Shown: positions 18,723-22,108 of the stretch, one piece after another | Numbering within the stretch: position 1 is the first letter of the stretch | Layout: the number at the start of each line of letters is the position of its first letter | The notes under the pieces: model-generated | What the model was told of the DNA's origin: nothing | What the model saw: the letters and a program-made list of their open reading frames with translations, nothing else | Database searches by the model: none | Position numbers and translations under genes: made by a program | Origin: Actinomycetes bacterium | GTDB taxonomy: Bacteria > Actinomycetota > Actinomycetes > Nanopelagicales > Nanopelagicaceae | Direction of reading: 5' to 3' | NCBI GenBank assembly: GCA_023252155.1 | Contig: JAHEXJ010000001.1 | Coordinates: 13,553-77,552, forward strand | DNA: 64,000 bases

Positions 18723-19592
18723 ATGACACGAAAGAGTTGGGCTTTATTTATTGCTCTGGGATTTCTCTGGGGAATCCCATATTTGTTGATTAGGGTCGCC
18801 GTTCGAGATCTCAATCCTGCTGTCGTTGTTTTCGGTCGTGTGCTTATTGGCGCGTTGATTCTTGTTCCAATCGCATATCGCCAAAAAACCTTGGCAGTTG
18901 CTTTGCGCGGTTTCAAGTACGTATTCCTTTACGCGGCATTCGAAATCATGGGTCCGTGGTTTCTGCTTACGAAAGCTGAAATTAACCTTCCCTCCGGACT
19001 TGCAGGGCTTCTCATCGCTACTGTGCCCATTTGGGCAACCATATTCGCGTCAATGGCTGGAGATAAGACGGTCTGGCATCACAAACGCCTCATTGGAATT
19101 GTGGTCGGCTTCATCGGTTTAATTACCGTCGTCGGGATTGAGAGTTTGACCGGCGATAGTGCACTCTGGGCAATACTTTTTGTACTTGCTGCCGCATTGG
19201 GCTACGGCTTTGCACCAAACATGATCACGACAAAACTTCCTGGTGTCTCAGGGCTTGCGATCAACGCAGTTGCAATGTCGATCGCGGCGATCGTCTATGC
19301 CCCTTTCGCATTTTTGCAATGGCCTCACGGACACGTCGCGACCAATTCAGTGTTCTCAGTTGTGGCCCTCGGCGTTTTCCCAACCGCCATGGCATTCGTG
19401 GTCTTCTTTGCCATACTTAAGGAAATTGGCGTTGCCAGAGCATCGCTAGTGACCTATTTGAATACCGCATTTGCTGTGGTCTTAGGTGCGCTCATACTTT
19501 CCGAGCCCTTGACACTGGGAATCGTTATAGGACTTCCAATGGTGTTGGTTGGCTCTTACCTCGCCAGTCGGAAACCAACCAACAACCATTAG
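18723..19592 (+). CDS. EamA/DMT-family transporter
   Basis: 289 residues and ten hydrophobic helices in two EamA repeats (ALGFLWGIPYLLIRVAV at the start; IGVARASLVTYLNTAFAVVLG in the second half). Unrelated in detail to the copy at 10382. The substrate is unknown. It begins 11 bp after the glycogen synthase stop and is probably read through from it, with a hairpin closing the unit. Confidence 0.86.
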   Translation: MTRKSWALFIALGFLWGIPYLLIRVAVRDLNPAVVVFGRVLIGALILVPIAYRQKTLAVALRGFKYVFLYAAFEIMGPWFLLTKAEINLPSGLAGLLIATVPIWATIFASMAGDKTVWHHKRLIGIVVGFIGLITVVGIESLTGDSALWAILFVLAAALGYGFAPNMITTKLPGVSGLAINAVAMSIAAIVYAPFAFLQWPHGHVATNSVFSVVALGVFPTAMAFVVFFAILKEIGVARASLVTYLNTAFAVVLGALILSEPLTLGIVIGLPMVLVGSYLASRKPTNNH

Positions 19593-19596
19593 ATGA

Positions 19597-19622
19597 TCAG
19601 GAATTGGCTCTGAAATTCCTGA
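19597..19622. terminator. Hairpin after the DMT transporter
   Basis: Perfect 9-bp stem TCAGGAATT / AATTCCTGA with an 8-nt loop, starting five bases after the stop. No T run follows. The remaining 170 bases up to the regulator stop at 19793 show nothing else convincing. Confidence 0.6.
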
Positions 19623-19792
19623 AGCGTACCTCCGTGAGAACTTTGGATATGAGTGCTCGACGCACCTTTCGATTCAGCAAGACCCGGGAAGAACGTGAAT
19701 CCAAGGACAACGACGATGAAACACAAGGCTCGCGGCGTTTTACTCATGATGACGTGACAACCTCTTTGATTGAAATAGTCATGACAAATTCC

Positions 19793-21097
19793 TTAGTAGC
19801 GTGCCTCTGACAGAACTGGTTGCTCTGCCTGTGAAGCGTTGCCAACTGCGATCGCTTGTTCGTACGCATAAATTGCGTAATCTTTGTGATCCATTTCTAC
19901 AAAGACCCGTGCAATCTCTCCCCAGTGGATGGCCAACTCCCGATCGGGAGCGAGAGTTCGAAGATGTGCCATCGCTCGCTCCAACTGTGCGAAAGATTCC
20001 TCTATCTTTCCGAGACAGAATAGCACCTTCGCTTCTTGAGAAAGCAAACTTGCCTTTGGCCCCGGAATTTCAGGAGGCAACTCGGCCAGACCTTTCCTTG
20101 CATACATCAGTGCCTTTTCGAAATTACCAAGGCGAAGTTCCACTTCCGATAACGTGATACATGTCGTGGCGGCATGTCCAGGGTTATTCTGAGAGGCCAA
20201 ATCAAGGTAGGCGGACTCGGCTAAGTCGTGGATGCGGATGAGGTCAGGCTCCGGCATATCCAACATCCACTTGGCGGCGTTGTCGTTCAAAATCGGAAGT
20301 ACTTGATGGAGCTCGGCCAACTTAGTCCAATGCATTGCCTCAGTGATTTGGCTCAACGCTAAATTCACATCGCCACGAAGATTTGCGAGAACCGAAGCCT
20401 GCCAGTATGACTGCACCATGGCCTTAGGCGATTTGCACTTCTCTGCCAATTTGAGAGCCCTGCCGATTATCTCGGTTGCTCGAGGAGTATCTCCGCGACG
20501 GAAATGACATCCAGCGAGTTGAACCATGAGCTCTACGATTTCGGTTTCGGGCCAAGATTGCGCATACTCCATGAGCAGGGCCTCACCTCGCTGGACACCG
20601 AGTGCTAAATTTCCCGATCTGAAACAAACTCGAACAATCTCATTCCCTATTCGAGCTCTCAAATCCGGCGCAGCCCTCGGATAGTCCTTGAACAGTAGTT
20701 CAAGGCGATCCAAAACTCCCTCATAAAGTCCCCGTCGCGCCCTCACCTGTAGAAGAACTACCGAAGCGGCAATCGAGGCGACATCTTCAATACCCTCGGG
20801 GCTAAATTTCAAAACCTGATTGGCATAATCCTCGGCCAATTCCAAATCCCCCGAACTCAATGCAACTTTGGCGGTATTGAGATTGAATTCGCGCTCTTGG
20901 GCACTCTGGTCGATAACCAGGTCCTCATTGGGTACACCCAATCTTGCGGCTAGTTTGGCTATGAGTTCCGGCTTAGGTTTCCTTTTCCCTGCCTCCAAAA
21001 GGGAGATAAAACTCGAGGCGGCTATGCCTTCGGCTAGCTCGTACTGGGTCAGACCCGCCTTCTCCCTCAGCATTCGGAGCTTCTCTCCAAACTCCAT
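19793..21097 (-). CDS. XRE-family regulator with C-terminal TPR array (RRNPP-like)
   Basis: 434 residues. An N-terminal HTH (about 5-60; KAGLTQYELAEGIAASSFISLLEAGKR... recognition region) is followed by a long alpha-helical region (about 70-420) with repeated TPR-like signatures such as GDLELAEDYANQVL, GDTPRATEIIGRALKLAE, GNFEKALMYARKGL and KDYAIYAYEQAI. This is the architecture of RRNPP sensors (Rgg, PlcR, PrgX), which bind short imported peptides in the TPR pocket. It is divergent, 78 bp apart, from a gene for a 50-residue secreted peptide. Peptide sensing is inference; Rgg-like TPR regulators without peptides also exist. Confidence 0.88.
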   Translation of the reverse strand: MEFGEKLRMLREKAGLTQYELAEGIAASSFISLLEAGKRKPKPELIAKLAARLGVPNEDLVIDQSAQEREFNLNTAKVALSSGDLELAEDYANQVLKFSPEGIEDVASIAASVVLLQVRARRGLYEGVLDRLELLFKDYPRAAPDLRARIGNEIVRVCFRSGNLALGVQRGEALLMEYAQSWPETEIVELMVQLAGCHFRRGDTPRATEIIGRALKLAEKCKSPKAMVQSYWQASVLANLRGDVNLALSQITEAMHWTKLAELHQVLPILNDNAAKWMLDMPEPDLIRIHDLAESAYLDLASQNNPGHAATTCITLSEVELRLGNFEKALMYARKGLAELPPEIPGPKASLLSQEAKVLFCLGKIEESFAQLERAMAHLRTLAPDRELAIHWGEIARVFVEMDHKDYAIYAYEQAIAVGNASQAEQPVLSEARY

Positions 21098-21142
21098 ACC
21101 CCACTTCCCTTCTTCACGACTTTAGTGTATCTTACAACCAAC

Positions 21143-21159
21143 CTTTACAAATAGTAAAG
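21143..21159. promoter_or_regulatory. Inverted repeat in regulator/peptide intergenic region
   Basis: CTTTAC-aaata-GTAAAG, a perfect 6-bp inverted repeat lying 7 bp upstream of the peptide gene's SD (21166-21170), between two divergent genes. It is a natural candidate binding site for the XRE-TPR protein. Confidence 0.6.
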
Positions 21160-21175
21160 ACATTTGGAGGATATT

Positions 21176-21328
21176 GTGAAGCAAATTGGACTAACCCTAA
21201 TCGCAGTCGTCTTAGTCGTTACGACCGCGCTCCCTGCTAACGCCGCCACGAAGAGAACCTCAGTTTCCTCAGGTACAACGTTCACACTCATGAGCATCCC
21301 AGGTGCAACCGCTTGCTGCGTTGCCTGA
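21176..21328 (+). CDS. Small secreted peptide (candidate signalling pro-peptide)
   Basis: GTG start with a strong SD (GGAGG at 21166-21170, five-base spacing) and TGA at 21326-21328; 50 residues. The N-terminus MKQIGLTLIAVVLVVTTAL is a textbook signal peptide, with a likely cleavage site after PANA. The remaining 26-27 residues are rich in Ser/Thr and end in SIPGATACCVA. No homolog is recognised. Its position opposite an XRE-TPR regulator suggests a secreted and processed signal. The Ser/Thr plus Cys-Cys tail could also fit a modified bacteriocin-like peptide, but no modification genes are visible. Confidence 0.72.
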   Translation: MKQIGLTLIAVVLVVTTALPANAATKRTSVSSGTTFTLMSIPGATACCVA

Positions 21329-21342
21329 CTCACGACATAACT

Positions 21343-21366
21343 AACTTTGGCAACGACGCCAAAGTT
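21343..21366. terminator. Perfect 9-bp hairpin after the peptide gene
   Basis: AACTTTGGC-aacgac-GCCAAAGTT starting 14 bases after the peptide stop. No T run. It could terminate or attenuate transcription so that the peptide mRNA is more abundant than the downstream genes, or stabilise its 3' end. Confidence 0.6.
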
Positions 21367-21389
21367 GTACAAAAGAATAAAAGGACAGG

Positions 21390-21403
21390 TTGAACATGTT
21401 CAA
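21390..21403. promoter_or_regulatory. 14-bp perfect palindrome
   Basis: TTGAACATGTTCAA, perfect over 14 bp and including the ATG of the possible 42-codon ORF. The GAAC half-sites are 2 bp apart, not 4, so it is not a canonical SOS box. Confidence 0.4.
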
Positions 21404-21524
21404 GGATGAGACGGAACACGGACGAATGATTTCGTACGTATCCAGAAGTGCTTCCCCTCTTCACTCATTTCCCTGCACATCTTCACATGTCCACGCTCAA
21501 CAAGTTGCAACCGAGATCGAATAA
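21396..21524 (+). CDS. Possible 42-residue peptide
   Basis: ATG 21396 to TAA 21522-21524, with AAGGACAGG about six bases upstream as possible SD and eight bases to the next gene. The product is hydrophilic (MFKDETEHGRMISY..., His/Ser-rich middle, acidic end), has no signal peptide and no recognised family. It sits between the peptide and the secreted protein on the same strand. It may be real or chance; codon use cannot settle it at this length. Confidence 0.35.
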   Translation: MFKDETEHGRMISYVSRSASPLHSFPCTSSHVHAQQVATEIE

Positions 21525-21532
21525 AGGAACAG

Positions 21533-22108
21533 ATGATGACAACGCGTCTGAAGAAGAGTTCCATCTTCAAGGTCGCTTTGTTTGTCGCAGTAGTGCTCCT
21601 CACTGAGACTTCGTATGCAGCCAGTGGAGACGCAAGCACTGTTCATTTCTCGCAGAAACAAATCACAAAGTTCGTTAAGACAGTCACAACCGAATTAGAG
21701 TTCAGCAAGAATTGGAAATCGAATTTTTCCAATACAGCCGGCAGCAAGTTGTATTGCCACTCAGTAGTACTGGGTGAAGGCGTTCGCGCCGGCAACCCAG
21801 GTCTCTACACTTGGTTCACTTGCAGTGCGATGCATAAGTTAGTTGCCGAGAGTTCATCACCGAAGACCATCGCTTGCACAGGGTTTTCATCCCCTGTTTG
21901 GATCCAACCTTCAGCCGACTCAATTAGTTATCAAACCGTTTCTTACGGCAGGCAGTATTCATCTTTTAGATCTGCTGCTCCAGCTCACATAAAGACCATC
22001 ATGGATTCAACGTTCAGTCAACTCAATTCCGGTCAACCTAGAATCTTGATTGCGCGTGCAACTCAAAGCGCGACAAATGTTTCAAATCAATCAAGCGTCT
22101 GCCAATAA
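21533..22108 (+). CDS. Secreted protein of unknown function
   Basis: 191 residues with a signal peptide (basic start, hydrophobic core VALFVAVVLLTE, probable cleavage near SYA-A at residue 30). The mature part has four cysteines (YCHSV, FTCSAM, IACTGF, VCQ at the end), which could form two disulfides. No domain is recognised. AAAGGA upstream suits either of two adjacent ATGs (21533, 21536). It lies downstream of the small peptide gene in the same orientation and ends directly against the convergent era stop. A link to the putative signalling locus is positional only. Confidence 0.75.
   Translation: MMTTRLKKSSIFKVALFVAVVLLTETSYAASGDASTVHFSQKQITKFVKTVTTELEFSKNWKSNFSNTAGSKLYCHSVVLGEGVRAGNPGLYTWFTCSAMHKLVAESSSPKTIACTGFSSPVWIQPSADSISYQTVSYGRQYSSFRSAAPAHIKTIMDSTFSQLNSGQPRILIARATQSATNVSNQSSVCQ

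Follow-up and report, generated by a model that had tools for sequence, protein, structure and literature searches.

A regulator with an N-terminal helix-turn-helix (HTH) domain of the XRE type and a long array of tetratricopeptide repeats (TPRs), encoded back to back with a small exported peptide in the window (the whole 64,000-nucleotide stretch of DNA that was analyzed), probably constitutes an RRNPP-type peptide-signaling module of Actinomycetota, and one belonging to a so far undescribed class-wide family. Somewhat less firmly, we favor the view that this is an undescribed quorum-sensing family spread across the Actinomycetes, from freshwater Planktophila-type bacteria to Streptomyces and Kineosporia, in which XRE-TPR receptors are paired with exported peptides bearing a vicinal Cys-Cys, and in which individual lineages alter or lose this Cys-Cys (CC) for private signals. 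An earlier note on this DNA had proposed an actinobacterial equivalent of the RRNPP systems, with the peptide exported, processed and sensed; the pairing, its conservation and the fold of the receptor support this proposal, whereas re-import of the peptide and its binding by the regulator are steps that we infer.

The regulator, a protein of 434 aa, is encoded on the reverse strand (19793-21097) and the propeptide on the forward strand (21176-21328), the two genes diverging from a gap of 78 bp (21098-21175). The peptide gene comprises 50 codons with a GTG start and is preceded by the Shine-Dalgarno sequence GGAGG (21166-21170, forward strand), and its product reads MKQIGLTLIAVVLVVTTALPANA followed by ATKRTSVSSGTTFTLMSIPGATACCVA. 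A lysine-rich start, a hydrophobic stretch and an AxA site identify, by rule, a Sec signal peptide with a predicted cut after ANA at residue 23 (21176-21244, forward strand), which agrees with the strong Shine-Dalgarno sequence and signal peptide ascribed to this reading frame before; here, as throughout, signal peptides were called from hydrophobicity and the AxA rule alone. Cleavage at this point would release 27 aa, one more than the 26-residue export product given in the earlier note, and this mature peptide would need trimming because it is longer than the known RRNPP pheromones. Its conserved C-terminal core, IPGATACC, is encoded at 21296-21319 (forward strand).

Within the divergent gap lies the inverted repeat CTTTAC-AAATA-GTAAAG (CTTTACAAATAGTAAAG, 21143-21159), a perfect 6-5-6 palindrome that had already been pointed out and that we regard as a candidate operator. 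This is its only exact copy in the whole genome, and control by the regulator therefore appears to be local, involving its own gene, the peptide gene and the downstream gene for a secreted protein with four cysteines (21533-22108, forward strand, 191 aa), which is present as the earlier note described it. Consistent with this, a genome-wide operator search for a wider regulon returned looser matches that were no commoner than those of a reversed control pattern. After the stop codon of the peptide gene is a hairpin with a 10-bp stem (21342-21367, forward strand; -13.2 kcal/mol as against a shuffle mean of -7.6), a possible attenuator that may lower read-through into the four-Cys gene. A 42-codon reading frame between the two (about 21396-21524), previously entertained as a possible gene, was considered as a second peptide and set aside, as its 5, 6 and 8 differences from the closest relative are spread evenly over the codon positions and it thus lacks codon-position bias.

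Orthologs of the regulator were found in 10 of 21 genomes of the genus, including its own (some being partial at contig ends). Three genomes from another genus of the same taxonomic family, below called the second genus, also have one, and identities across the two genera are 59-70%. Readable upstream DNA is available for 11 orthologous loci, eight from the first genus (this locus included) and three from the second, and every one of them has, at the same place, a divergent reading frame led by a Shine-Dalgarno sequence and encoding a signal peptide, a recurrence that exceeds chance. In neither genus is this frame missing or broken at any full regulator locus whose upstream DNA can be read. 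The candidate operator is retained in all eight first-genus loci with upstream DNA, as CTTTACARATAGTAAAG, and takes the form CTTTACAAATTGTGAAG in the second genus. The peptides of the first genus end in IPGATACCVA, IPGANSCC, IPGLNGCC, IPGGIWCC (twice), IPGAAGCCG or IPGAQGCCG (twice), with I, P, G, C and C invariant and a middle that varies in both length and sequence, and those of the second genus in GGIWCCDAIPA, GGQWCCDAIPA or GGIWCCLV. Conservation of the pair in relatives, a check set beforehand, hence extends through the genus to the second genus and, as described below, across the class, the C-terminus being the conserved and the middle the variable part. In pairwise comparisons of related peptides, the six residues ending in CC have a dN/dS of about 0.17, compared with about 0.32 for the signal peptide and about 0.46 for the middle portion; the peptide genes are real and under purifying selection, and the C-terminal core is their constrained part. 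The peptides belong to no Pfam or NCBIfam family when the cut-offs are applied.

Regulator, peptide and four-Cys protein are inherited as a unit in this genus. They occupy a cassette (19593-22108) between genes for an EamA-type transporter and Era, and in regulator-bearing genomes of the genus the three lie beside era. In the 11 genomes of the genus lacking the regulator the whole cassette is missing; there the EamA gene and era have their ends only a few bases apart, which identifies the site as empty. Of the 296 genomes of the taxonomic family that were searched, those encoding the four-Cys protein are precisely the 10 of this genus that have the regulator, and the other 286 lack it. Likewise, no orphan peptide genes were detected, a search with the peptide profile outside the regulator loci giving only weak matches inside long frames. 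It is these empty sites, the exact co-occurrence of the four-Cys protein and the lack of orphan peptides that establish the unit. In the second genus the regulator-peptide pair occurs without the four-Cys protein, which is most likely the local output of the module in the first genus; it matched no Pfam or NCBIfam family, and its model (pLDDT 65) gave no significant structural match. The EamA-type gene (18723-19592) is convergent to the regulator here, and such a gene is likewise convergent, downstream of the regulator, at two other loci (L131 and L125), which could be a coincidence.

The domain architecture of the regulator agrees with its initial description as an XRE-HTH protein with a long TPR-like region. 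Pfam recognizes HTH_31/HTH_3 at residues 2-59, and TPR_12 and other TPR models thereafter. An AlphaFold2 model (pLDDT 89) shows the HTH domain, with helices at residues 3-14, 18-22, 28-35 and 43-53 (the domain being encoded at 20939-21091, reverse strand), and then nine helix pairs, which form a superhelix of nine TPRs spanning residues 65-423 (19829-20905, reverse strand). The best bacterial fold matches of the model are Rap with the pheromone CSF, PlcR with PapR7 and DNA, and a phage Rap with pheromones, and the TPR superhelix anticipated for a peptide receptor is thereby recovered. The structure search finds equally good matches in eukaryotic TPR proteins, LGN among them, and the fold alone is therefore no proof of an RRNPP protein. 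At the profile level, the best natural bacterial match in the PDB over both HTH and TPRs is PlcR (2qfc/3u3w, E=3e-14). Given these profile and fold matches, and with generic TPR proteins matching too, a common ancestry with the known RRNPP subfamilies is possible. Among 42 CC-type representatives below 70% identity, Trp232 and Trp392 are invariant and position 233 is Asn or Gln in 39; by TPR numbering we infer that each of the two tryptophans occupies position 5 of an A helix and faces the groove. The same genome also encodes a paralog of the TPR part without an HTH domain (L002, G000:C49:17252-18325), which resembles Rap in its architecture. Such a paralog is further present in a close relative (L010, G009:C64), and in a third genome (L014/L018, G010) it carries in-frame stops; identity to the TPR part of the regulator is 47-51%. 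These proteins may act as a sink for the peptide or be a further receptor for it.

A scan of 84,980 species genomes recovered full-length homologs at about 25-33% identity from Streptomyces, Kitasatospora, Streptacidiphilus, Umezawaea, Kineosporia and others, most of which adjoin a small exported reading frame ending in IPLCC (the Streptomyces end), VPLCC, IPVCC, FPPCC or PATCCTKG (the Kineosporia end). A class-level search with a profile of 17 sequences gave matches in 85 of 395 genomes and 33 of 131 genera, a tally that takes in lower-scoring XRE-TPR proteins that prove to be without a CC peptide; below the family score the class has 19 full-length XRE-TPR proteins, none with such a peptide beside it. 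A uniform scan of the flanks took in 109 distinct full-length family regulators from across Actinomycetes, and 82 of these had a secreted CC peptide nearby, including one (L166) whose peptide is more than 1 kb away, and these 82 span 22 coded genera along with named genera that possibly overlap the codes. When the test was fixed at 450 bp, 81 of 113 family loci had a CC peptide as against one of 72 control XRE loci, many of the latter being from other phyla, and the single positive control (L013) is itself a truncated true member of the family. Shuffled flanks were positive in 17 of 2260 cases, and distant segments of the same contigs in one of 429, namely the peptide of L166. The CC filter was chosen after inspection of the first loci, and the rate within the family is for this reason partly post hoc, the same filter having been applied to the controls; moreover, related loci are not independent, and below 70% identity the CC representatives number 42. 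In-frame stops that had seemed to interrupt several matches of one coded family are actually the normal ends of slightly shorter regulators.

Variation within the family is informative with regard to the nature of the signal. By the AxA rule the predicted mature peptides are 14-30 aa long in this genus and the second genus and about 7-17 aa in many relatives, such as 9 aa in Kineosporia (RPATCCTKG), 12-13 aa in the coded family f18 (DTIEPNWPTMCC) and mostly 7-13 aa in the coded genus g52. At four f18 loci (L131, L134, L138 and L142) the regulator is flanked by a CC peptide on either side, and in two of them the last letters of the paired peptides match (SPGDFCC/GSDFCC in L131 and DPGSYCC/GSDYCC in L138), as expected if one receptor reads both. 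The 27 family regulators without a CC peptide by the filter include two HTH-less paralogs and a second-copy clade of the coded family f15. Five members of f15 (L157, L159, L163, L168 and L171) keep a divergent secreted reading frame in the same place with the CC end replaced by GWNHPG, GWGWPG, WNGPW, WQWPI or PLNNAE; these ends look as a changed pheromone would, and a switch of signal is possible. The propeptide of L026/L039 contains a degenerate internal repeat (TPSTDGGIVMTTQSVGGGIWCC) resembling the duplicated propeptides reported for RRNPP systems.

With regard to mobile elements, plasmid matches come from Streptomyces and two relatives. On plasmid pSMg1-1 of Streptomyces sp. Mg1 (L229, 7001-9063) the regulator is accompanied by a peptide ending in KDIPLCC (WP_008741297.1) and a second small secreted protein, in a biosynthesis-like neighborhood encoding a cytochrome P450, a PIG-L deacetylase, a BTAD-type regulator and an ABC transporter. 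A phage or arbitrium-type origin was considered and rejected, the only phage match being an unverified scaffold from human feces (L286, MT836207.1) with a 36% identical regulator at its end. No common target gene clearly recurs beside the family regulators in other lineages among the loci examined.

We propose that the small gene would give rise to a propeptide exported through the Sec pathway, from which signal peptidase would free a short peptide with two adjacent cysteines in its conserved end. The released peptide would accumulate outside, and either it or a C-terminal fragment would be re-imported through an oligopeptide permease to bind the groove of the TPR superhelix. Binding would then alter, in one direction or the other, the action of the N-terminal HTH at the palindrome lying between the two divergent promoters, and thus set the expression of the peptide gene and its neighbors, the neighbor at this locus being the gene for the secreted four-Cys protein.

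Short exported peptides containing cysteine are often antimicrobial, and in this genus a secreted protein follows the peptide; the latter might accordingly be a bacteriocin or another extracellular effector, with the XRE-TPR protein regulating its gene via some other ligand. We deem this unlikely, given that at the loci examined the pair has no recurrent companion gene for immunity, modification or dedicated transport and that, where mature lengths of 7-13 aa are predicted, the peptides would be very small for bacteriocins without modifications. The strict pairing with a single family of TPR receptors, although the neighbors change, is also better accounted for by a ligand. Still less probable, in our estimate, is that the Cys-Cys end serves as a metal chelator or thiol sensor, such that the regulator would report on metals or redox conditions and not on cell density. 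That the Cys-Cys is the sole feature common to most of the peptides, the rest being variable, would suit such a role, but the residues preceding it are lineage-specific and constrained (IPL, WPGM, PGDF and GGIW), as expected of a recognized ligand, and one subclade has apparently retained the gene while losing the CC.

As propeptide and receptor are made in one cytoplasm and uptake is a proposed step, the regulator could conceivably sense the unexported propeptide, gauging Sec export or its own expression with no cell-cell step. This we hold to be very improbable and the least probable of the alternatives: the strongest constraint falls beyond the signal cleavage site, export signals are common to the whole set (though they were part of the search filter), and several binding proteins of the Opp type (SBP_bac_5) are encoded in the genome.

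Actinomycetes rank among the main producers of antibiotics, and most of the cell-cell signals known from them are small molecules of the butyrolactone type. A gene-encoded peptide pheromone in these bacteria, if true, would mean short sequences that are predictable from the genome and directly testable as synthetic peptides. If some of the Streptomyces copies control the adjoining biosynthesis-like genes, such peptides would offer a simple chemical means of unlocking silent clusters. A peptide pheromone of this kind would further extend peptide signaling to freshwater bacteria with small genomes, which are seldom regarded as social, while the vicinal Cys-Cys end raises the question of a redox-dependent form of the signal.

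In the parts of the literature covered, RRNPP peptide signaling is described for Bacillota and their mobile elements (PMC10075063, PMC9765709, PMC4748050), and the RRNPP_detector survey deals with Firmicutes and viruses and calls actinobacterial signals typically small molecules (PMC10075063). We found no earlier description of an actinobacterial dicysteine peptide family in the part of the open-access literature covered, and the present one may be the first. The actinobacterial TPR regulators of the NsdA family (NF053720) give a weak match to the TPR part of the regulator, at 36 bits well under the curated cut-off of 75 bits, which places it outside that family; unlike the new family, NsdA has no partner peptide described in the literature covered.

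The signature of RRNPP systems, as given in PMC10075063, comprises a propeptide of 10-100 aa, a Sec signal, a receptor of 250-500 aa, TPRs and adjacency of the two genes, and all five are found at this locus. The propeptide has 50 aa (roughly 38-80 aa in the family) and, by rule, the positive start, hydrophobic stretch and AxA site of Sec export both here and in the family; the receptor has 434 aa (about 428-475 aa in the family), with TPRs seen by Pfam models and the nine-repeat AlphaFold2 model alike; and the genes are divergent and 78 bp apart. Among characterized systems, PlcR-PapR of the Bacillus cereus group similarly has a receptor with an XRE-type HTH and TPRs encoded beside a Sec-exported propeptide, the active part of which is the C-terminus, as we propose here. 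PlcR is the shorter protein, with a repeat domain in a total of about 285 aa as opposed to about nine TPR units in 434 aa, and the new family further differs from PlcR-PapR in being actinobacterial, in the dicysteine end of its peptides and in an orientation that is usually divergent or convergent. Rap-Phr and NprR-NprX also combine a TPR receptor with a neighboring exported propeptide, and Rap with CSF is the top bacterial fold match, the HTH-less paralogs being Rap-like in this respect too; the differences are that no phosphatase role is indicated here, the peptide sequences are other ones and the phylum is another. Judged from sequence, the system would work like an RRNPP system and falls within the computable definition of one.
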